Origin: Arenibacter algicola
GTDB lineage: Bacteria > Bacteroidota > Bacteroidia > Flavobacteriales > Flavobacteriaceae
NCBI RefSeq assembly: GCF_018860365.1
Contig: NZ_JAHKPO010000001.1
Location: 62,001 to 126,000 of the forward strand
Direction of reading: 5' to 3'
DNA length: 64,000 nt
The position numbers and the translations under genes were made by a program. The notes below the pieces were generated by a model, which did no database searches, was not told where the DNA came from, and saw only the letters and a program-made list of their open reading frames with translations. Shown here piece by piece: positions 33,953 through 47,231 of this stretch. Positions within the stretch are counted from its first letter, which is position 1. Each line of letters begins with the position of its first letter.

Positions 33953-33991
33953 GGATAAATTTGTCCGAAATAAGAATAAGCATTATATTTG
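33953..33991 (+). promoter_or_regulatory. Promoter and operator of the Rrf2 gene
   Basis: A textbook Bacteroidota promoter: TTTG at 33960-33963, 20-base spacer, TATATTTG at 33984-33991. A palindrome-like 14-mer, GGATAAATTTGTCC (33953-33966), covers the -33 element. The same 14-mer with one change recurs upstream of the nos operon, so it is a good candidate for the binding site of the Rrf2 protein, giving autorepression. Confidence 0.7.
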
Positions 33992-34015: not shown

Positions 34016-34450
34016 ATGTTTTCAAAGGCCTGCGAGTACGGAATTAAAGCAACTATATACATAGCTGTTAAATCTATGCGGCAAGAGCGCGTAAGCCTTA
34101 AAGAGATAGCGGAAGAGGTAGATTCTCCTGTGGCATTTACCGCAAAAATATTGCAATCATTGGCAAAGAGTGGAATCATAGATTCCCATAAGGGTCCAAC
34201 TGGTGGATTTCAGATCGAGGAAACCAAAATAGATACCATTAAATTGCACGATATAGTACATGCCATAGACGGTGACAAAATATTCGTTGGCTGTGGTCTG
34301 GGTCTGGAACAATGTGATGCCAGTCAACCCTGTCCTGTCCACGATAAATTTGTGGGAATCAGGGACAATCTAAAGATTATGCTGAAAAATACAAGCCTTT
34401 ATGAATTGGCCACAGGCTTGGAAATTGGTCTAACCCATCTGAAAAGATAA
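34016..34450 (+). CDS. Rrf2 family transcriptional regulator, NsrR/IscR-like Fe-S type
   Basis: A 144-residue winged-helix regulator (ACEYGIKATIYIA, then SLKEIAEEVDSPVAFTAKILQ, GPTGGFQ as wing). Three cysteines, C93, C100 and C106, have the C-x6-C-x5-C spacing of Fe-S-binding Rrf2 proteins such as NsrR. NsrR loses DNA binding when NO attacks its cluster. The position at the head of a set of NO-resistance genes and the shared 14-mer sites support an NO-sensor role, but that is inference. Confidence 0.85.
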   Translation: MFSKACEYGIKATIYIAVKSMRQERVSLKEIAEEVDSPVAFTAKILQSLAKSGIIDSHKGPTGGFQIEETKIDTIKLHDIVHAIDGDKIFVGCGLGLEQCDASQPCPVHDKFVGIRDNLKIMLKNTSLYELATGLEIGLTHLKR

Positions 34451-35774: not shown

Positions 35775-36500
35775 ATGGAAAATTTAATGACCAAGAATAT
35801 TGGCGAAATAGTAGCAGAAAACTATCGTACGGCACAAGTATTCAAAAATCATAAAATAGATTTTTGTTGTAAGGGAAACCGGAGTATTGTAGAGGTTGCC
35901 GAAAAAAGTAAGCTGGACGCCAATCTCCTTTTACAGGAAATTGAAACAGTGCAACATCAAACCAATGATGACAACATCGATTTTAAAACATGGCCTTTGG
36001 ACCTATTGGCAGATTATATTGAGAAAAAACATCATAGATATGTTGAGGCCCAAATACCGATTCTAAATCAATATCTGGCCAAACTATGCCGGGTCCATGG
36101 AGACCGGCATCCAGAGCTTTTTGAAATTACGGAGCATTTCAATAAAAGTGCAGGAGAGCTGGCGATGCACATGAAAAAAGAGGAACTCATCGTCTTCCCT
36201 GCCGTACGTAAAATGGTTCAAAACAAACAATATGGCAATGCCCTGGCAGAACAACATTTTGGCACTATTCAAAATCCCATACAAATGATGATGCAGGAAC
36301 ATGAGAACGAAGGCGACCGATTTAGGCTTATAGAGGAGTTGAGCAACAACTATAATCCACCTGCCGATGCCTGCAACACTTACAGAGTTACATTCTCACT
36401 ATTACAGGAGTTTGAAGAGGATCTACATAGGCATATACATTTGGAGAATAACATTCTCTTTCCAAAAGCAATTGCTCTGGAAAAGGAATTAAGCGCTTAA
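35775..36500 (+). CDS. ric: Iron-sulfur cluster repair di-iron protein (RIC/ScdA/YtfE)
   Basis: 241 residues. The N-terminal ScdA domain (IGEIVAENYRTAQVFKNHKI, DFCCKGN with C31-C32) is followed by a hemerythrin-like di-iron domain with several conserved histidines (KKHHRYVEAQ, HMKKEELIVFPAV, EHENEGDRF, DLHRHIHLENNILFP). RIC proteins restore Fe-S clusters damaged by NO or oxidants, with reported NO-related chemistry. The gene is tightly linked to kynA and the cupin, and fits an NO-resistance set. Confidence 0.95.
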   Translation: MENLMTKNIGEIVAENYRTAQVFKNHKIDFCCKGNRSIVEVAEKSKLDANLLLQEIETVQHQTNDDNIDFKTWPLDLLADYIEKKHHRYVEAQIPILNQYLAKLCRVHGDRHPELFEITEHFNKSAGELAMHMKKEELIVFPAVRKMVQNKQYGNALAEQHFGTIQNPIQMMMQEHENEGDRFRLIEELSNNYNPPADACNTYRVTFSLLQEFEEDLHRHIHLENNILFPKAIALEKELSA

Positions 36501-39592: not shown

Positions 39593-40375
39593 CTAAAAAT
39601 CTTTTCTTTTGGCTACATATGACAAGCGCCAAACCGGGATTACCGTCCATAGGAACAACATAATAATAGACACAAAAAGTCCTAGGTTGGTCCCAAAAAA
39701 TTGCTTAAAAATAGCTCCTGTGTACCCCAATAAAGCCGAAATATCCAGTTTTAGTAAAATTAAGGTCCTGGATAGGTCTATTGGATTAAACATGGTGGCA
39801 AGCAAGGAAAGGTTATCCAAGGGGTATTCCTCAAAAACGATCAATGACATTAGAAAGAGTCCGTCATAAATTACGGCCAAAAACAACCAGGCCAAGACAG
39901 CATACCCAAAACCTTTTATCTTATTTTCATTGGACAGGGCAATATTAAAGGCAATAGCAGTAAAGATCAGTGTTAAAAATGCACCCGTAATCAATAATAG
40001 CGAAAAATCCCATATGGCCTTGCTTTGGAACAGTCCGTATAATGTAAAAGGAATACCCAGACCCAATACCAAGCTCACCGTCAACGAACCGGCAACCCCA
40101 AAATATTGGCCCAGAAAAATAGACGATCTTTTAATGGGCTGTGCCAAAAGGAGTTCTGTAAATTCCTTGGAGTTGTAGAAATACATTACGCCAAATATGG
40201 TCCCTATAAGGGGTACCAGAACAATAATAACGTTCATTAGGGTAATAACGGCCTTGGAGAGCTCATTGTTCAAAAACAACAGTACAAAGCCCAACAACAG
40301 ATAGAACAGAAAATAAACGTAACTCCAACGGCTACGCATAAGGTCGTAAAAACTATATTTTAATATCTTAATCAT
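39593..40375 (-). CDS. nosY: Nos-type ABC transporter permease
   Basis: 260 residues with six hydrophobic helices and the ABC-2 style N terminus MIKILKYSFYDLMRSRW. The middle FYNSKEFTELLLAQPIKRS matches the NosY pattern. NosD, NosF and NosY together help mature the copper site of nitrous oxide reductase, probably by transporting a sulfur species. The ATG at 40375 overlaps nosF by 8 bases, and the longer frame to 40414 is not needed. Confidence 0.9.
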   Translation of the reverse strand: MIKILKYSFYDLMRSRWSYVYFLFYLLLGFVLLFLNNELSKAVITLMNVIIVLVPLIGTIFGVMYFYNSKEFTELLLAQPIKRSSIFLGQYFGVAGSLTVSLVLGLGIPFTLYGLFQSKAIWDFSLLLITGAFLTLIFTAIAFNIALSNENKIKGFGYAVLAWLFLAVIYDGLFLMSLIVFEEYPLDNLSLLATMFNPIDLSRTLILLKLDISALLGYTGAIFKQFFGTNLGLFVSIIMLFLWTVIPVWRLSYVAKRKDF

Positions 40376-41078
40376 GGTTGCTGTGGGTTGATATTGCCGC
40401 AATGGCGTGTTCAAAATTGCTTTGTCCGGTTTTGGTCTTTAATTCCGCAATGCTGCCCTTAAAGTAAATTTTACCTTCTAACAGATATACGATATGGTCG
40501 GAAACCTCTTCTACAAACTGCATAATATGGGAGGTGATCAAAATAGTCTTTCCTTTTGCCTTTTCTTCAGAAATAAGTTCCTTGAGACGGATCATTGATA
40601 AGGGATCCAGGCCATTGGTAGGTTCGTCCAAAATAATCAAGGGACTGTCGAACATAAAGGTCAATACAATATTTACCTTTTGTTTGGTACCTCCGGATAG
40701 GTTGCTCAATTTTTTATCCAAGAATGGCTCCAATCCAAATAGGCCGATCAACTTTTGTTCGTCGCTCGGTTTTTGCCTAATATCCTTTATCATTGCTATT
40801 AATTCCTTGACCTTTAGGTTTCCTGGGAAATTGGCAATTTGGGGAAGGTAATTTATGTCTTGGCGATACTTCCACTTATTTCTAACAGGTGAATCCATTA
40901 CAGTTATAGCCCCTTTATTGGGAATTACCATCCCTAGCACTGTTTTGATCAAGGTTGTTTTACCGGAACCATTGGGTCCCAGGATAGCAAAAATACCGCC
41001 CTGGTCAATATTGAGTTCCAATCCGGCCAATACCACATTCTTACCAAATTTCTTATGAAGGCTTTCAACGTGTATCAT
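40368..41078 (-). CDS. nosF: Nos-type ABC transporter ATPase
   Basis: A 236-residue ABC ATPase with Walker A GPNGSGKTTLIK near residue 35, signature LSGGTKQK, Walker B plus D-loop LIILDEPTNGLDP and the switch histidine ITSHIMQF. It overlaps nosD by 4 bases and nosY by 8, so the three are translationally coupled. Role as for NosY. Confidence 0.95.
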   Translation of the reverse strand: MIHVESLHKKFGKNVVLAGLELNIDQGGIFAILGPNGSGKTTLIKTVLGMVIPNKGAITVMDSPVRNKWKYRQDINYLPQIANFPGNLKVKELIAMIKDIRQKPSDEQKLIGLFGLEPFLDKKLSNLSGGTKQKVNIVLTFMFDSPLIILDEPTNGLDPLSMIRLKELISEEKAKGKTILITSHIMQFVEEVSDHIVYLLEGKIYFKGSIAELKTKTGQSNFEHAIAAISTHSNHD

Positions 41079-42313
41079 TTAATTTTTTTCATTAAGGGTT
41101 TTGCATCAACTAATTCATCCGGGGTGAAAACAGGGGAAACTTTTTCCGAAAAATCGATAATATCCATAAATAAACTGCGAAGTAGAATAATAGTTTCGGG
41201 GGTTCTGTTTACGATATAGGAAAATAATTTTACCGGTCTGTAGGGAATATCGCCAGTGCCGTTCTTATCCAGATCGTAACCTGTATAGTCGCTCCAAAAG
41301 TTTTCCTCAAAAATATTATCGTTCAAATTGCTGTTGTAGGCCAGATCAAAGGAGTTGTACATAAAGTTATTATGGATAAAGGTATTGGAATAACAGGCTC
41401 CACGTACTTTTATGGCCCATCCATTTTTTATGAAATTATTTTTTGAATAATTTATCCTATTGGAGCCTTCAATACTAATACCCACTGTATTTTCCTCAAA
41501 GGTATTACCTGTAATTTCCGCATCATTGATCTCTTTTAACAACACACCAAAGGAAGTGGTTCCCCAATTCTTTTTAAAGGTATTTCCCAACATTTTTATC
41601 CTTTTGGAAAACATGACCGCTACCCCTGCCCCGTTGTTCTCAAAGGTATTGTCCTTATAAATGTCATCATTGGAGAACATAAAGTGCAGCCCATAACGAA
41701 GGTTGTCCGAACTAATGTTGTTTTCAATGGTGATATTGTCCGAGAACTCCAGGTAGATACCATCCCTTACATGTTGAACAATATTGCGCTCCACAACTAT
41801 ATTCTGTGAATACCATAATTGTATGCCATTCCCTGAATTATACTCGTCCACGGCATCCCCGATGATCTTATTATGATATACCCTGCCGTTTTTGCTCTTC
41901 TCCAAATAAATACCGAAAAATAGCTTTTCCAGCACCACATTCTGTATTAAAAAGTTTTCGCTCTGCACCACCCTGATAGCGGCATAATCTGCCGTATAAC
42001 TGGTACCAACATTTATGATGAACAGGCCATCTATGGTTACATTGTCCGAAACTATGGTTATGATCTCCCCATTATCTTCGCCATCAATTACGGGATAGTT
42101 CTCTCCAATAATGGTCAAGGGTTTGGTTACTTGGATATTGAATTCCTTGTACGTTCCTTTTTTGATCAAAAGTGTATCAAAATCGGCAGCTACGGCTATG
42201 CCTTTCTTTATGGTTTTCACCTCACAGGATCCGCAGACCGTGATGGTCCCAGCCCGTAAATGATTAGCAAAAAGCAATAATAGAAAGCAGTAAAGTACTC
42301 CTATCCTTCCCAT
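41075..42313 (-). CDS. nosD: Nitrous oxide reductase maturation protein NosD
   Basis: 412 residues with a Sec signal peptide (LYCFLLLLFANHLRAG) and a right-handed beta-helix of CASH repeats (NGIQLWYSQNIVVERN, DGIYLEFSDNITIENN, GVGISIEGS-type turns). NosD works in the periplasm with the NosFY transporter in assembling the CuZ site. It overlaps the cupin gene upstream by 1 base and nosF downstream by 4. Confidence 0.95.
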   Translation of the reverse strand: MGRIGVLYCFLLLLFANHLRAGTITVCGSCEVKTIKKGIAVAADFDTLLIKKGTYKEFNIQVTKPLTIIGENYPVIDGEDNGEIITIVSDNVTIDGLFIINVGTSYTADYAAIRVVQSENFLIQNVVLEKLFFGIYLEKSKNGRVYHNKIIGDAVDEYNSGNGIQLWYSQNIVVERNIVQHVRDGIYLEFSDNITIENNISSDNLRYGLHFMFSNDDIYKDNTFENNGAGVAVMFSKRIKMLGNTFKKNWGTTSFGVLLKEINDAEITGNTFEENTVGISIEGSNRINYSKNNFIKNGWAIKVRGACYSNTFIHNNFMYNSFDLAYNSNLNDNIFEENFWSDYTGYDLDKNGTGDIPYRPVKLFSYIVNRTPETIILLRSLFMDIIDFSEKVSPVFTPDELVDAKPLMKKIK

Positions 42314-42720: not shown

Positions 42721-43155
42721 CTATAATTGAAATCTTAGTTTTAACTGTTCCCAGGTCAATAGGTCCCCCTCATAAGTCATTAGTGCATCCACTGCTGCTT
42801 GTTCCGTTTTAAAGGCCGTTAAAAATTCGCCCATGGGACTGGGAATGCGATCGCTGATCAGATAGGTAGCTTTTGTTGCATTTATCAATTCCCCAGGCTG
42901 ATTGTAATCATTAACCAAATAAAGGGCTACTTGCTCCTGGTCTATGTCCTTAAGGTGATTCATCATACATTCACTGGAATCGAACTTAAAGGCCTTACCC
43001 TTATCCGTAACAATTTCAGCTGCATGTTGCCGGTCTACAATGGTCATACTACAAAAATGACATCCATCAGATCCATAGGCAATGGGTTTAGGACCAACAT
43101 TGCAGGAAACTGCCAACAATAAAAACAAAAACACAACTATTCTGTAGTTCGCCAT
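42721..43155 (-). CDS. nosL: Nitrous oxide reductase accessory protein NosL
   Basis: 144-residue lipoprotein (lipobox FLLLAVSC) of the NosL family, a copper chaperone for NosZ. The Cu-binding segment is GCHFCSMTIVDRQHAAEIV, with Cys, Cys and Met side chains, followed by SSECMMNHL. Located between the four-helix membrane protein and the cupin, in the usual nos context. Confidence 0.93.
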   Translation of the reverse strand: MANYRIVVFLFLLLAVSCNVGPKPIAYGSDGCHFCSMTIVDRQHAAEIVTDKGKAFKFDSSECMMNHLKDIDQEQVALYLVNDYNQPGELINATKATYLISDRIPSPMGEFLTAFKTEQAAVDALMTYEGDLLTWEQLKLRFQL

Positions 43156-43172: not shown

Positions 43173-43817
43173 TTATGCAGCTACCGCTTTTTTTAATTGC
43201 TGTTTTGCCCCTGATTTCTTGCTCTTCCAACCAATATAGGCCGCTACCAATGTAAGTGACATTCCAACAAACATCATATAGGCACCAATACTTGGAAGGG
43301 ATGTAACATCAAAATTCAACATTTTTTGATATCCCAACAAGGGTGGTTTATAAGTCATAGGGGTTCCATCCTCATTGATAACCTTTATAATGGCATGTGG
43401 ATCCAAGTTGGAACCGTAATCCGTAAGCCATTCATTAAAGTCGTACATACCCAGAACGCCCAAAACGGACATCAAGACAAACCAACCCAAAAACCATTTA
43501 AAATCCACTTTTCCAAAGAATCCCAATAGTCCTATAAGCACTCCAAGTACCACCATTCCAATGATAACCTTGGGAAAAACACCAAATTCCCACATTTCCC
43601 CGGATTTTGGAATAGTCTTCATACCAATATAGTGATTTAATCCGTCTATATTCTGTAAATCAAATTCAGAGACACCCTCTATTCCCGAAATATGAATATT
43701 CATGCCCAATGGTTCTGGATATTGCGGTGCCCCCAGCATAATATTCCATAGAGGAAAGGCAAACAATCCCAATAAAAATAATGGGCCAATGATCATTATT
43801 ATACTTGCATTTTTCAT
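43173..43817 (-). CDS. Four-helix membrane protein of the nos cluster, unknown function
   Basis: 214 residues with four hydrophobic helices (first IIMIIGPLFLLGLFAFPLW, last SIGAYMMFVGMSLTLVAAYIGW) and a large hydrophilic loop between helices 1 and 2 containing SGIEGVSEFDLQNIDGLNHY. It lies between nosZ and nosL, 17 bases before nosL. I do not know a described function; a role in electron delivery or copper delivery to NosZ would be guesswork. Confidence 0.75.
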   Translation of the reverse strand: MKNASIIMIIGPLFLLGLFAFPLWNIMLGAPQYPEPLGMNIHISGIEGVSEFDLQNIDGLNHYIGMKTIPKSGEMWEFGVFPKVIIGMVVLGVLIGLLGFFGKVDFKWFLGWFVLMSVLGVLGMYDFNEWLTDYGSNLDPHAIIKVINEDGTPMTYKPPLLGYQKMLNFDVTSLPSIGAYMMFVGMSLTLVAAYIGWKSKKSGAKQQLKKAVAA

Positions 43818-43951: not shown

Positions 43952-45913
43952 TTATTCACCTAGGGACCAAGATAGCTCTATGTTGGAATTTGCTGGTGAA
44001 ACCCTAACATATCCCTGCATCTCTTGGTGAAGTGCAGAACAGAAATCGGTACAATAGAACGGCCATACCCCAACTTGCTTAGGTTCCCAAATTATTGTCT
44101 TTGTCTGACCCGGCATAACCAACAATTCGGAGGTGTTGGCACCTATTACGGCAAAACCGTGTGGTACATCAAAATCCTGTTCTTGATTGGTAATATGGAA
44201 ATATACTTTGTCGCCTACCTTGACACCTTCAATGTTATCAGGGGTGAAATGACTTCGTATGGTGGACATGTAAATATGTACATCCTTTCCATCACGAACA
44301 ACCTTGGCATCAGCTGGCCCTAAGGTAGCATATGGGTGTTTGTTTTCTGCCAGCTTATAGATCTTTTGCGATTTTGGCGCTAGGATCTCAGCAGGGATTC
44401 CTGCCGCATAATGTGGCTCTCCATGAGTAGGGAAATCATAGATAAGTTCCATTTTATCCCCTGAAATATCGTACAATTGGGCAGAATGCTCCAATTCCGG
44501 ACCTGTAGGCAGGTATCTATCCTTGGTAATCTTGTTCATAGCTACCACATATTTACCAAAGGGCTTTCTGGAGTTGCCACCAGGTATCATCAAGTGGCCA
44601 ACGGAATAGTAGGTAGGTTTTCTGTCGATGACCTCCCAAGTTCCCAATTTCCACATCACCACCTCTGAGGAGATAAAGAAGGTAGTATAGGCATTACCCT
44701 CACCGTCAAATTCGGTATGTAATGGCCCAAGACCACCACTTTTTACAGTTCCGGCAAGTACGTCCTCAAATTTTAGGATAGGAATGCCATAGGCTTCCCC
44801 ATCAAACTTTTTACCTTCAATGGCAGCAATCATTTTATCAAAAGAGTGTACTGTTAAATCTGCCGACAGCTTTCCGTTACCAATAATATATTCGCCAGAA
44901 GGATCTACATCACAACCGTGAGGTGATTTTGGAGTGGGTAAGAAAAATACCGCTCCAGGTATTTTGGTAGGATCTACGGTCAACACCTCTTTTTTCATAG
45001 TTGAAGTGGCTGTATGTGTAGACTCATCATATACGTTATGAGCGTAATTTGCAGGCATTTTTGTACCTCCTCCATTGTTTACGTATTCTTCGATTTTTTT
45101 CCAGTTTATAGCTGCAATAAAATCCTTGTCATTTTGAGATGCGTTAACCTCTAAAAGCGAGTTAGCTTCTTCAGTATTATAAGTGGTAAAGAAGAACCAA
45201 CCATGAGATTTTCCACGTCCAGGATGTGATAGATCATAGTTAAACCCAGGCATCAATATTTGGAATTTAATATCCATATGACCATGTTCCGGATCTACAC
45301 TAATAAAGGATAAGGCGCCCTTAAAATTGCCCTTGTATTCCTTAATTGGCATATCGGCCTGAGGAACGGGTACTGAAAAACGGGTTCCTGCAACGACATA
45401 TTCAGTGTTTTCGGTAATGAAAGACGAACTGTGGTTACCGGCACTATTGGGTACCTCAATGATTTCCTCTGTTTCAAAGGTTGTAAGGCTTATCCTTGCA
45501 ATCCTTGGCGTGTTGTTGCCGTTTATGAATATCCATCTTCCATCCAATTCACCATTGGTTTGGCTAATATCCGGGTGGTGGGAGTCATCCCATGGCACAA
45601 AACCAAAAGAGGTATTCAACATTGGCTTGGTCTCCTCTGAATAGCCGTAGCCTGAGGTGGCAAACTGAGAGAACACGGGGATTTCCTTGAACATACGTCC
45701 AGATGGCAGGCCATAAACTGTTAGGTTGCCACTATATCCCCCGGACATAAAAGCGTAAAACTCGTCATGTTCCCCAGGGGCTACATAGACTTTTTCGGCA
45801 TTGCTCGAATTCAATGCTCCGGAAGAACCTTTGCCCTGGTTGCCGTTACCGCAACTAGTCAATAGGGCGGCAAAGCCCAGGAGTCCCAATACTAAATAGG
45901 TATGCTTTTTCAT
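43952..45913 (-). CDS. nosZ: Nitrous oxide reductase, Sec-dependent (clade II-like)
   Basis: 653 residues. The N terminus is a Sec/lipoprotein-type signal (LVLGLLGFAALLTSC) rather than a Tat signal, the hallmark of clade II NosZ. A seven-bladed propeller with CuZ histidines (DDSHHPDI, SPHGCDVDP, GPLHTEFDG) precedes a C-terminal cupredoxin domain. Its CuA ligands are H585 (PHGFAV), C621, C625, H629 and M632 in CTDFCSALHQEM. The enzyme reduces N2O to N2. It leads the nosZ-membrane protein-nosL-cupin-nosDFY series. Confidence 0.97.
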   Translation of the reverse strand: MKKHTYLVLGLLGFAALLTSCGNGNQGKGSSGALNSSNAEKVYVAPGEHDEFYAFMSGGYSGNLTVYGLPSGRMFKEIPVFSQFATSGYGYSEETKPMLNTSFGFVPWDDSHHPDISQTNGELDGRWIFINGNNTPRIARISLTTFETEEIIEVPNSAGNHSSSFITENTEYVVAGTRFSVPVPQADMPIKEYKGNFKGALSFISVDPEHGHMDIKFQILMPGFNYDLSHPGRGKSHGWFFFTTYNTEEANSLLEVNASQNDKDFIAAINWKKIEEYVNNGGGTKMPANYAHNVYDESTHTATSTMKKEVLTVDPTKIPGAVFFLPTPKSPHGCDVDPSGEYIIGNGKLSADLTVHSFDKMIAAIEGKKFDGEAYGIPILKFEDVLAGTVKSGGLGPLHTEFDGEGNAYTTFFISSEVVMWKLGTWEVIDRKPTYYSVGHLMIPGGNSRKPFGKYVVAMNKITKDRYLPTGPELEHSAQLYDISGDKMELIYDFPTHGEPHYAAGIPAEILAPKSQKIYKLAENKHPYATLGPADAKVVRDGKDVHIYMSTIRSHFTPDNIEGVKVGDKVYFHITNQEQDFDVPHGFAVIGANTSELLVMPGQTKTIIWEPKQVGVWPFYCTDFCSALHQEMQGYVRVSPANSNIELSWSLGE

Positions 45914-45947: not shown

Positions 45948-46529
45948 TTATTCTGTTGGGGGCAACATTACTTTGTCTACCACATGTACAATTCCGTTGC
46001 CCGCAGGTACACTGGCCAAAATTTTGGCACCACCGACCAACACATCGTCTCCTACTACCTCAACCGTGGCGTTCTGATCATTGGCCTGCCCCAATTTTTT
46101 AAACTTCATTAAGAATTCCTTGCTGTAATTACCAGCGGTAACATGATATTTTAGAATATTGGCCAAAGCATCTTTGTTCTCCTGTTTTAAAAGATCCTCC
46201 ACAGTACCTGCAGGTAGTGCGGCAAAAGCCTCATTGGTAGGGGCAAATACCATTAGGGGACCTGCATTTACCAAGGCGTTTTCCAATCCTGCGGCCTGGA
46301 CCGCTGCCACCAAAGTAGTATGGTCGGGGGAACCTATGGCAATCTGCAGAACATTGGGTGTGGAACCATCATCGTCGATAAAGGCCTGGCCCTGTTTTTC
46401 AACTTCCTCCGTCCCAGCTTTATCCTGAGTAGGGGACGTTGCCGTCTTGGGTTCGTTTTTACAACTGAACAAAACGCTCAACATAAGAAACGATAACATA
46501 AATGATTTTAAATTGGTTGTCGGGAACAT
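45948..46529 (-). CDS. Fasciclin (FAS1) domain lipoprotein
   Basis: 193 residues. A lipoprotein signal (LSFLMLSVLFSC) precedes one FAS1 domain of about 135 residues (TTLVAAVQAAGLENALVNAG, LMVFAPTNEAFAALPAG, ILKYHVTAG, GNGIVHVVDKVML). FAS1 proteins mediate adhesion or scaffold interactions. Here the gene lies between the cytochrome c and nosZ, as in other Bacteroidota nos operons, suggesting a structural or electron-transfer docking role that is inferred. Confidence 0.88.
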   Translation of the reverse strand: MFPTTNLKSFMLSFLMLSVLFSCKNEPKTATSPTQDKAGTEEVEKQGQAFIDDDGSTPNVLQIAIGSPDHTTLVAAVQAAGLENALVNAGPLMVFAPTNEAFAALPAGTVEDLLKQENKDALANILKYHVTAGNYSKEFLMKFKKLGQANDQNATVEVVGDDVLVGGAKILASVPAGNGIVHVVDKVMLPPTE

Positions 46530-46544
46530 AATACTATGTATTTA

Positions 46545-47054
46545 TTATAAGGTTCTAAAGTATTCCAATACTGCTCTGGCCTGTTCTTCGGTAAGACCTT
46601 GATTGGCCATAGGAGCACCGTTAAATTCGGCCAACAAAGCTTTTGCCAATGGATCTTCCTTAACCATACCTTCAGGATTCAGGATCATGTTCATGACCCA
46701 TTCAGGGCTACGTCTTTCCAAAACACCTTTTGGGGCCGGCCCTATGAATTTTTTATCCACCCTATGACAGGCCAAACACATTTGGTTGTAAATTTCTTCA
46801 CCTTTTTTAGCCATCTCTTGATCTACTTCGGCCGCCAAGCTTATCGAGGTAATTGGCCCCACTCCTTTGTTTGTTAAATCTACGGTCTCAGAGGGTTTTG
46901 TATCTGTTGCCGCAGGCGCTGGTGCAGGTTGTTCTGTTGTGGTTTTTGCCCTGTCCACACTAAAGCCTTCTTTTTTCTTTTCTTCCTTACCTCCACAGCT
47001 CATCATTAAAACTGAAAAAAGAACTGCGCTACTTTTTAAAATTATTTTCATCAC
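46545..47054 (-). CDS. Cytochrome c lipoprotein, electron donor candidate for NosZ
   Basis: 169 residues with a lipobox cysteine at about position 20 (VLFSVLMMSC), a proline/alanine linker, and a class I cytochrome c domain. The heme motif CLACH is at C93, C96, H97, with an axial-Met candidate M149 (NGAPMANQG). It is the first gene of the nos operon and probably passes electrons to NosZ. Its promoter region carries the FNR-like and Rrf2-like sites. Confidence 0.9.
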   Translation of the reverse strand: MMKIILKSSAVLFSVLMMSCGGKEEKKKEGFSVDRAKTTTEQPAPAPAATDTKPSETVDLTNKGVGPITSISLAAEVDQEMAKKGEEIYNQMCLACHRVDKKFIGPAPKGVLERRSPEWVMNMILNPEGMVKEDPLAKALLAEFNGAPMANQGLTEEQARAVLEYFRTL

Positions 47055-47168
47055 TTTATTTTTATTTGTTGTTTATAGGTCGTTTTTAAATATTCGTAAT
47101 ATTGATATTGATCGTTGTTGCTTAGAAAGATTTATACATAATTTGCGATTTTTAACAATTTATTGGGA

Positions 47169-47176
47169 CAAAATTA
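47169..47176 (-). promoter_or_regulatory. -7 box of the nos operon
   Basis: On the minus strand it reads TAATTTTG, an exact TAnnTTTG match, 115 bases upstream of the cytochrome c start. The only TTTG upstream is 14 bases away, so the promoter probably depends on the FNR-type activator site at 47199. Confidence 0.5.
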
Positions 47177-47198
47177 GGTTGCCATTGAAACAAAAAAC

Positions 47199-47212
47199 AT
47201 GATAAAAATCAT
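47199..47212. promoter_or_regulatory. FNR/CRP-type box upstream of nos
   Basis: ATGAT-AAAA-ATCAT has the 5-4-5 geometry and TGAT/ATCA cores of FNR boxes. It is centred about 42 bases upstream of the start predicted from the -7 box at 47169, the typical place for an activator contacting polymerase. Confidence 0.6.
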
Positions 47213-47217
47213 ATTAA

Positions 47218-47231
47218 GGATAAAATTGTCC
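47218..47231. promoter_or_regulatory. Rrf2-like palindrome upstream of nos
   Basis: GGATAAAATTGTCC differs at one base from the 14-mer at 33953-33966 over the -33 element of the Rrf2 gene. It lies 5 bases beyond the FNR-type box. Inferred binding site of the local Rrf2 regulator. Confidence 0.6.

Follow-up and report, generated by a model that had tools for sequence, protein, structure and literature searches.

A Candidate Promoter-Operator with FNR-Type and Rrf2-Type Sites Upstream of the Clade II nos Operon in Arenibacter and Other Flavobacteriaceae

Introduction

Bacteria carrying clade II nosZ are regarded as important sinks of the greenhouse gas N2O. What Rrf2 proteins do in clade II clusters is, according to the accessible part of one report, hard to predict, there being no cultured model (PMC6264515). 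The DNA studied, referred to below as the window, is a stretch of 64,000 nucleotides from the marine bacterium Arenibacter algicola, in which a sequence-only reading had placed three motifs upstream of the nos operon: an FNR-type box, an Rrf2-type palindrome (the R site) and a TAnnTTTG box (the -7 box). The comparisons reported here make it probable that the region 47169-47231 is the promoter-operator of nos, in which anaerobic activation of the FNR type would be gated by an Fe-S repressor of the Rrf2 family. A short conserved region thus appears to join, before N2O-destroying genes, an anaerobiosis-type "on" site and a site for an Fe-S regulator linked to Fe-S repair.

The nos Operon and Its Control Region

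The nos genes lie on the minus strand (Table 1). In the script-made list, in which open reading frames were called mechanically, the cytochrome c gene that opens the operon starts with GTG at 47054, whereas ATG at 47051 agrees better with relatives. NosZ belongs to clade II, its score with the model of Sec-dependent NosZ being above the cut-off. All 98 loci compared have a cytochrome c homologue before nosZ, and the fasciclin-domain lipoprotein was seen alongside both in 95 of them (absent from L041, L074 and L081).

The three motifs were found where they had been read, including the gap of 5 bases between the R site and the FNR-type box. The earlier placing of this box about 42 bases before the predicted start also agrees with the distance from its centre to the +1 predicted near 47163, which is a class II position. 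Runs of A and T flank the R palindrome and extend its symmetry to roughly 22 bp. The distance from the -7 box to the ATG of the nos operon is 117 bp in the window (47052-47168), compared with 24-27 bp in 53 of 79 loci.

Table 1. Sites and genes of the window considered in this work, with the evidence for each name.
Feature	Position	Strand	Evidence or remark
Second exact R palindrome GGATAAATTTGTCC, upstream of rrf2	33953-33966	.	Kept in relatives
Likely rrf2 -7 box TATATTTG	33984-33991	+	17 bp after the rrf2 R site, read directly
rrf2, candidate regulator	34016-34450	+	PF02082 89.1 bits (cut-off 30); TIGR00738 88.6 bits (cut-off 73.3)
RIC (YtfE/ScdA), di-iron Fe-S repair protein, downstream of rrf2	35775-36500	+	TIGR03652 243.7 bits (cut-off 204.7)
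ORF in nosY (ABC permease) position	39593-40414	-	Name from position and reading only
ABC ATPase in nosF position	40368-41078	-	nosF name from position
nosD	41075-42313	-	TIGR04247 439 bits
nosL	42721-43155	-	PF05573 58.6 bits
nos-operon membrane protein (by eye)	43173-43817	-	Without NCBIfam or Pfam match
nosZ, clade II (Sec-dependent) nitrous oxide reductase	43952-45913	-	TIGR04246 941 bits (cut-off 625)
Fasciclin-domain lipoprotein	45948-46529	-	PF02469
Cytochrome c lipoprotein, operon gene 1	46545-47054	-	PF00034
nos operon transcription start (predicted)	47163	-	Inferred from the -7 box
-7 box CAAAATTA, on the minus strand TAATTTTG (TAnnTTTG)	47169-47176	-	22 bp after the FNR-type box
FNR-type box ATGATAAAAATCAT (ATGAT-N4-ATCAT)	47199-47212	.	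Centre 47205.5
Candidate Rrf2-type operator palindrome (R site) GGATAAAATTGTCC	47218-47231	.	Centre about -61.5 of the predicted nos start

The strict R pattern GGAYAAWWTTRTCC, which was written around the site at 47218-47231 itself, matches exactly twice in the 5.75-Mb genome, at this site and at the one before the local rrf2; at one mismatch it is mildly enriched, with 52 places compared with 32 for the reversed pattern. The FNR-type box alone, allowing one mismatch, occurs 24 times in the window against 17.0 +/- 4.0 expected, a number reached by 4 of 100 shuffles. Its significance comes from its pairing with TAnnTTTG at 22 bp, because the module ATGAY-N4-RTCAT-N22-TAnnTTTG has 34 matches in the genome at up to one mismatch (8 of them exact) and its reversed control has one.

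Conservation of the Sites

Absence or scrambling of both sites in close relatives would have refuted the first reading; comparison of nos upstream regions gave the opposite result, both sites being kept and unscrambled. The arrangement [RGAY-N6-RTCC]-5/6 bp-[ATGAY-N4-RTCAT]-22 bp-[TAnnTTTG] is present upstream of nos in all 18 Arenibacter genomes, with an R-to-FNR spacing of 5 bp in 16 and 6 bp in two, and with TAATTTTG as the -7 box in 17 and TACTTTTG in one. Per column, R carries a mean information of 1.38 bits, the FNR box 1.85 and the -7 box 1.96, compared with 0.36 at -100 to -41, 0.71 at -40 to -20, 1.06 in the spacer and 1.11 in the 27 bp downstream. The contrast between R and the spacer or downstream segment is weaker inside Arenibacter alone, these 18 genomes being close relatives.

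A second set, which overlaps the first, comprised 80 named nos loci, mostly of Flavobacteriaceae, among which L090 and a few MAGs may fall outside the family. An FNR-type box lies upstream of the cytochrome c gene in 79 of these; the operon of L113, the locus scored without it, starts with another gene, and a box and R were seen beside its rrf2. Exactly 22 bp after the box there follows TAnnTTTG in 73 and TAnnTTTA in six of the 79 loci, which gives every one of them the fixed geometry of a class II FNR-type promoter. In 75 of the 79, the pattern RGAYN6RTCY starts at offset -18 to -20 relative to the FNR box (70 at -19), and its other matches in these loci number 8 in 30,352 positions. Mean information was 1.22 bits for R, 1.55 for the FNR box and 1.62 for the -7 box, and in the surroundings 0.21 (-100 to -41), 0.70 (-40 to -20), 0.47 (spacer, 14-35) and 0.44 (downstream), so that this wider set separates the sites from their surroundings better than do the 18 Arenibacter genomes. 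Four loci lack a matching upstream R, since none was found in L054 and L057, the site of L076 is one base off and L108 has R on the nos side only; the upstream R site is therefore not indispensable.

Specificity of the Composite Among Genomes

The exact composite R-5-FNR-22-TAnnTTT was found at 86 places in 82 of 299 genomes of the family, and the reversed pattern at none. Among the nosZ matches listed, at least 82 of these composites have a nosZ downstream on their own strand (78 within 1.33 kb and four at 4.2-5.2 kb), and they sit in at least 80 of the 137 genomes listed with nosZ. The other four composites precede nirK (two), nosL (one, at 27 bp) and a TonB-like gene identified by eye (one). 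Those before nirK and nosL are L221 (G132), L241 (G261) and L251 (G099), nirK being concerned in two of these genomes and nosL in the third.

In a class-wide draw the exact composite occurred in 0 of 381 genomes of other families, 130 of which have some nosZ match, in part weak or partial, and in 4 of 10 genomes of the same family with nosZ. Three genomes of one genus (G414, G505 and G532) have a more distant nosZ and no composite. The composite is mainly a Flavobacteriaceae trait, though not universal in the family, and part of the misses are probably variants in spacing or in one base which the exact pattern does not detect, as is seen among the 80 named loci. When 20 upstream stretches were scanned, 18 of them from outside the family, R together with the FNR box was found in one, L252 (taken as the same record as L090), with a 6-bp spacer, and the FNR box with TAnnTTTG at 22 bp in three, L252 included. 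Near nosZ of L264 and L265, both outside the family, Rrf2-like reading frames (short motif) were observed without the R plus FNR composite, and a different operator may be used there.

The Rrf2 Regulator and Its Candidate Operator

The palindrome had been attributed to an Rrf2 protein, and its position before rrf2 genes upholds it as a candidate Rrf2 operator. Of 107 related rrf2 genes, 106 have RGAYN6RTCY at most 130 bp before them; a separate count gave 86 of 88, compared with a mean of 1.4 in shuffled sequence. Divergent genes that have the nos region in common enter both counts, and the former leaves out L044, L060 and L076, whose translations are short, and L036, which is truncated at the end of its stretch. 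Before rrf2 genes situated away from nos the site was present in 32 of 32 cases, plus 18 of 18 of the genus, these sets overlapping.

The local candidate regulator scores above the curated cut-offs of the Rrf2 superfamily (Table 1) and contains the motif C-x6-C-x5-C-P-V-H. Three conserved cysteines, such as serve as Fe-S ligands in NsrR, occur as C-x(4-8)-C-x5-C-x2-H in 107 of 107 related Rrf2 proteins; this is not decisive for NsrR, because IscR has such cysteines too. The protein reaches neither the NsrR equivalog cut-off (NF008240, 28.9 bits; cut-off 182) nor that of IscR (TIGR02010, 55.2 bits; cut-off 207.55). The R consensus, compared by eye, does not fit the published NsrR consensus gATGyAT-N5-ATrCATc (PMC1274295), and NsrR operators are described as differing among known bacteria (PMC4432287). 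Assignment of R to the second Rrf2 protein of the genome was rejected, this protein having 31% identity and lying beside a sulfur-amino-acid gene (by eye).

The rrf2 genes fall into two types, that of the window ('MFSK', at least 50% identity) and another ('MLSN'). In the 2.5 kb that follow rrf2, RIC is encoded in 36 of 41 cases of the window's type and in 0 of 52 of the 'MLSN' type. NO is proposed as the signal mainly because of this linkage of RIC to rrf2, which suggests NO without proving it. The strict pattern revealed no wider Rrf2 regulon in the A. algicola genome. Of the 52 near-matches counted, 50 were examined: predicted ORFs contain 43 of these, two are the exact copies already named, and the remaining five, intergenic with one mismatch each, adjoin no NO-linked gene by eye.

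Divergent rrf2 Genes and Their Loss

An rrf2 gene reads away from nos in 58 of the 79 loci and has the control region in common with it, as called by tblastn within 1.5 kb, a procedure that strongly diverged or cut-off genes could escape. The FNR box of divergent loci tends to be symmetric in its surroundings: on the rrf2 side WAnnTTTR stands at 22 bp in 39 of the 58 loci, compared with one of the 21 without detected rrf2, and R, in the rrf2 arm, takes an autorepression position. The divergent rrf2 appears as a remnant in L077 and short when translated in L044, L060 and L076, where the FNR box and R or a near-R persist.

R is kept at the same place in 19 of the 21 loci without detected divergent rrf2, which are not independent, since they include 8 Arenibacter loci, L077 with its remnant and L075, for which no more than 179 bp upstream are available. 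A biotin-carrier-like gene (read by sequence) takes the place of the divergent rrf2 in seven of the eight Arenibacter loci of the 80. Because the operator has been kept although its divergent rrf2 neighbour is absent, R probably serves nos in Arenibacter, and no other observation speaks as strongly for a role of R at nos as this retention after the loss of the gene that would be autoregulated. Moreover, R stands on both sides of the FNR box in L070 and L086 and, as noted, on the nos side in L108; a site between the FNR box and the nos -7 box, that is, in the core promoter of nos, would be in a repressor position.

A more speculative picture can be drawn from these arrangements. One FNR-type dimer site might be common to two back-to-back class II promoters, those of nos and rrf2, in most of the Flavobacteriaceae loci examined, and Rrf2, through R in the rrf2 arm, might act as a toggle that chooses the promoter served by the single activator. 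In Arenibacter the nos-side rrf2 would have been lost, a paralogue with the same operator would remain 13 kb away, and the leftover operator would act on nos alone. We put this scenario forward tentatively and with some doubt.

The FNR Module and Candidate Activators

FNR-type control of nos, as first suspected from the box, gains in standing as a candidate by the occurrence of the same box-to-promoter module before other genes. The 30 modules inspected include those of the fnr-like gene itself, of nirK and hemN, whose identities models confirmed (TIGR02376 and TIGR00538, respectively), and of several genes that read by eye as universal stress proteins. The set resembles an anaerobic Crp/Fnr regulon, and R adjoins the FNR box only at nos among these 30. 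The NirK of the genome has a C-terminal cytochrome c domain (L154, 2-1441), and its gene carries the FNR module. A NorB-type NO reductase was not found in this genome with PF00115, whose two matches both read as cytochrome oxidases.

Four Crp-type HTH proteins of the genome score above the family cut-off. Three Crp/Fnr-type proteins have similar recognition helices (by eye), two of them being fused to receiver domains. The L145 protein is FNR-like, with an N-terminal Cys-x2-Cys; its score with NF008365 (Fnr), 102.5 bits, is below the cut-off of 228, and this is still the best-scoring NCBIfam model. The promoter of its gene contains an FNR module with one mismatch (L167). In L144 and L146 a receiver domain is fused to a Crp-type protein (REC-cNMP-HTH) with an E-x2-IR recognition helix (by eye), and these two fusions might feed a two-component signal into the anaerobic regulon. 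Both (661-1734 and 1489-2541, respectively) adjoin histidine-kinase-like ORFs on contig C27, amid universal-stress-type genes (by eye) with the FNR-type module, and C27 is the contig with most matches to this module.

Proposed Mechanism and Alternatives

In the mechanism that we favour, an FNR-type activator would bind ATGAT-N4-ATCAT at about -42 and recruit RNA polymerase to the -7 box by class II activation. Bacteroidota promoters have a -33 element, and at the nos promoter the activator would stand in for it. The palindrome near -61 would be bound by an Fe-S Rrf2 protein, most likely the one encoded at 34016-34450, which would restrain nos; damage to its cluster, most likely by NO, would release nos, and the same protein would repress its own promoter via 33953-33966. 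Expression of nos would on this scheme require both the absence of oxygen and ongoing reduction of nitrogen oxides. DNA binding by the Streptomyces NsrR is, for comparison, abolished by NO (PMC4432287). The weakest step is the sign of the Rrf2 effect at -61, which is no obvious position for repression in the window genome and counts against this mechanism.

The main rival concerns this very step, since Rrf2 at about -61 might co-activate together with the FNR-type activator or, in relatives, favour nos by blocking a competing rrf2 promoter. The near-invariant spacing of 5 bp, with one offset in 70 of 79 loci, suggests contact between the two proteins, and mirror promoters with one FNR box in common would allow competition; yet R lies in the nos core promoter of L070, L086 and L108, where a bound protein should block, and cluster-bearing NO-responsive Rrf2 proteins usually act as repressors. 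Even with the report that NsrR activates LEE promoters of E. coli O157:H7 by recruitment of RNA polymerase (PMC4432287), co-activation seems rather unlikely. It could also be held that R is an autoregulatory operator of rrf2 only, inherited from an ancestor with a divergent rrf2 and without a role for nos. The 58 divergent loci, in which R lies between the FNR box and the mirror rrf2 -7 box, are what such an origin would leave, as is the near confinement of that mirror box to loci with rrf2. Such a view is made improbable by the persistence of R in nearly all of the (not independent) loci without detected divergent rrf2 and in every Arenibacter genome, by its place on the nos side in L070, L086 and L108, and by the two composites that precede nirK.

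As to the activator, ATGAT-N4-ATCAT might be served by a receiver-Crp fusion of a two-component system or by an NO-sensing protein like DNR in place of an oxygen-sensing FNR. The two fusions beside histidine-kinase-like ORFs, with their E-x2-IR helices, and the richness of C27 in FNR modules make this a real, if lesser, possibility, against which stand the Cys-x2-Cys of the L145 protein, its best score to Fnr (below cut-off) and the module in the promoter of its gene. Chance resemblance in AT-rich intergenic DNA could appeal to the weak enrichment of the FNR-like box alone in the window and the mild enrichment of one-mismatch R in the genome. It is refuted by conservation at near-fixed spacing, by the composite count against its empty control and by the linkage to nosZ, and its probability is negligible.

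Comparison with Known Systems

The signature, with at least 82 of 86 composites before nosZ and a control of zero, is nearly free of background and supplies exact, testable sites, and the loci that have lost the divergent rrf2 and kept its operator form a natural experiment on the wiring of the two inputs. We know of no Rrf2 operator at the nos promoters of the DNR, FixK2 or Nitrosophilus systems. These resemble the present one in that a Crp/Fnr-type protein acts on nos (PMC1274295, PMC5582078, PMC11539149).

The wiring had been put forward as one not known to have been described, which holds in part. No description of this operator architecture was found in the available portions of the open-licence PMC literature on Rrf2/NsrR with nosZ, Bacteroidetes/Flavobacteria, operators or promoters; the association of rrf2 with nos, and promoters combining FNR and NsrR, have already been published. 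An rrf2 gene is recorded beside clade II nos clusters on Flavobacteriia scaffolds (PMC6264515), and Rrf2 control of nos has been suggested for Melioribacter (PMC3534657). The likeness to these cases is the association of rrf2 with clade II nos, and in the accessible parts of both reports neither an operator nor an FNR box nor a promoter architecture is described.

In the enterobacterial hcp promoter an FNR-like site and a site for the NO/nitrite-responsive Rrf2 protein NsrR have been proposed within one conserved promoter (PMC1274295), the differences being that the NsrR motif is downstream of the FNR site and that the target gene and the motif are others. In Neisseria, aniA is activated by FNR and repressed by NsrR at one promoter (PMC10187123), and the aniA/norB system is similar to the present one as a case of a denitrification gene under FNR activation and repression by an NO-responsive Rrf2 protein in one control region. 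It differs in phylum and enzyme, in the additional action of NarQP and Fur and, for norB, in having no FNR site near the promoter, as far as the accessible part of that report goes (PMC10187123). The published NsrR motif (PMC1274295) is also unlike GGAY-N6-RTCC found here; the comparison with Neisseria concerns the regulatory inputs.
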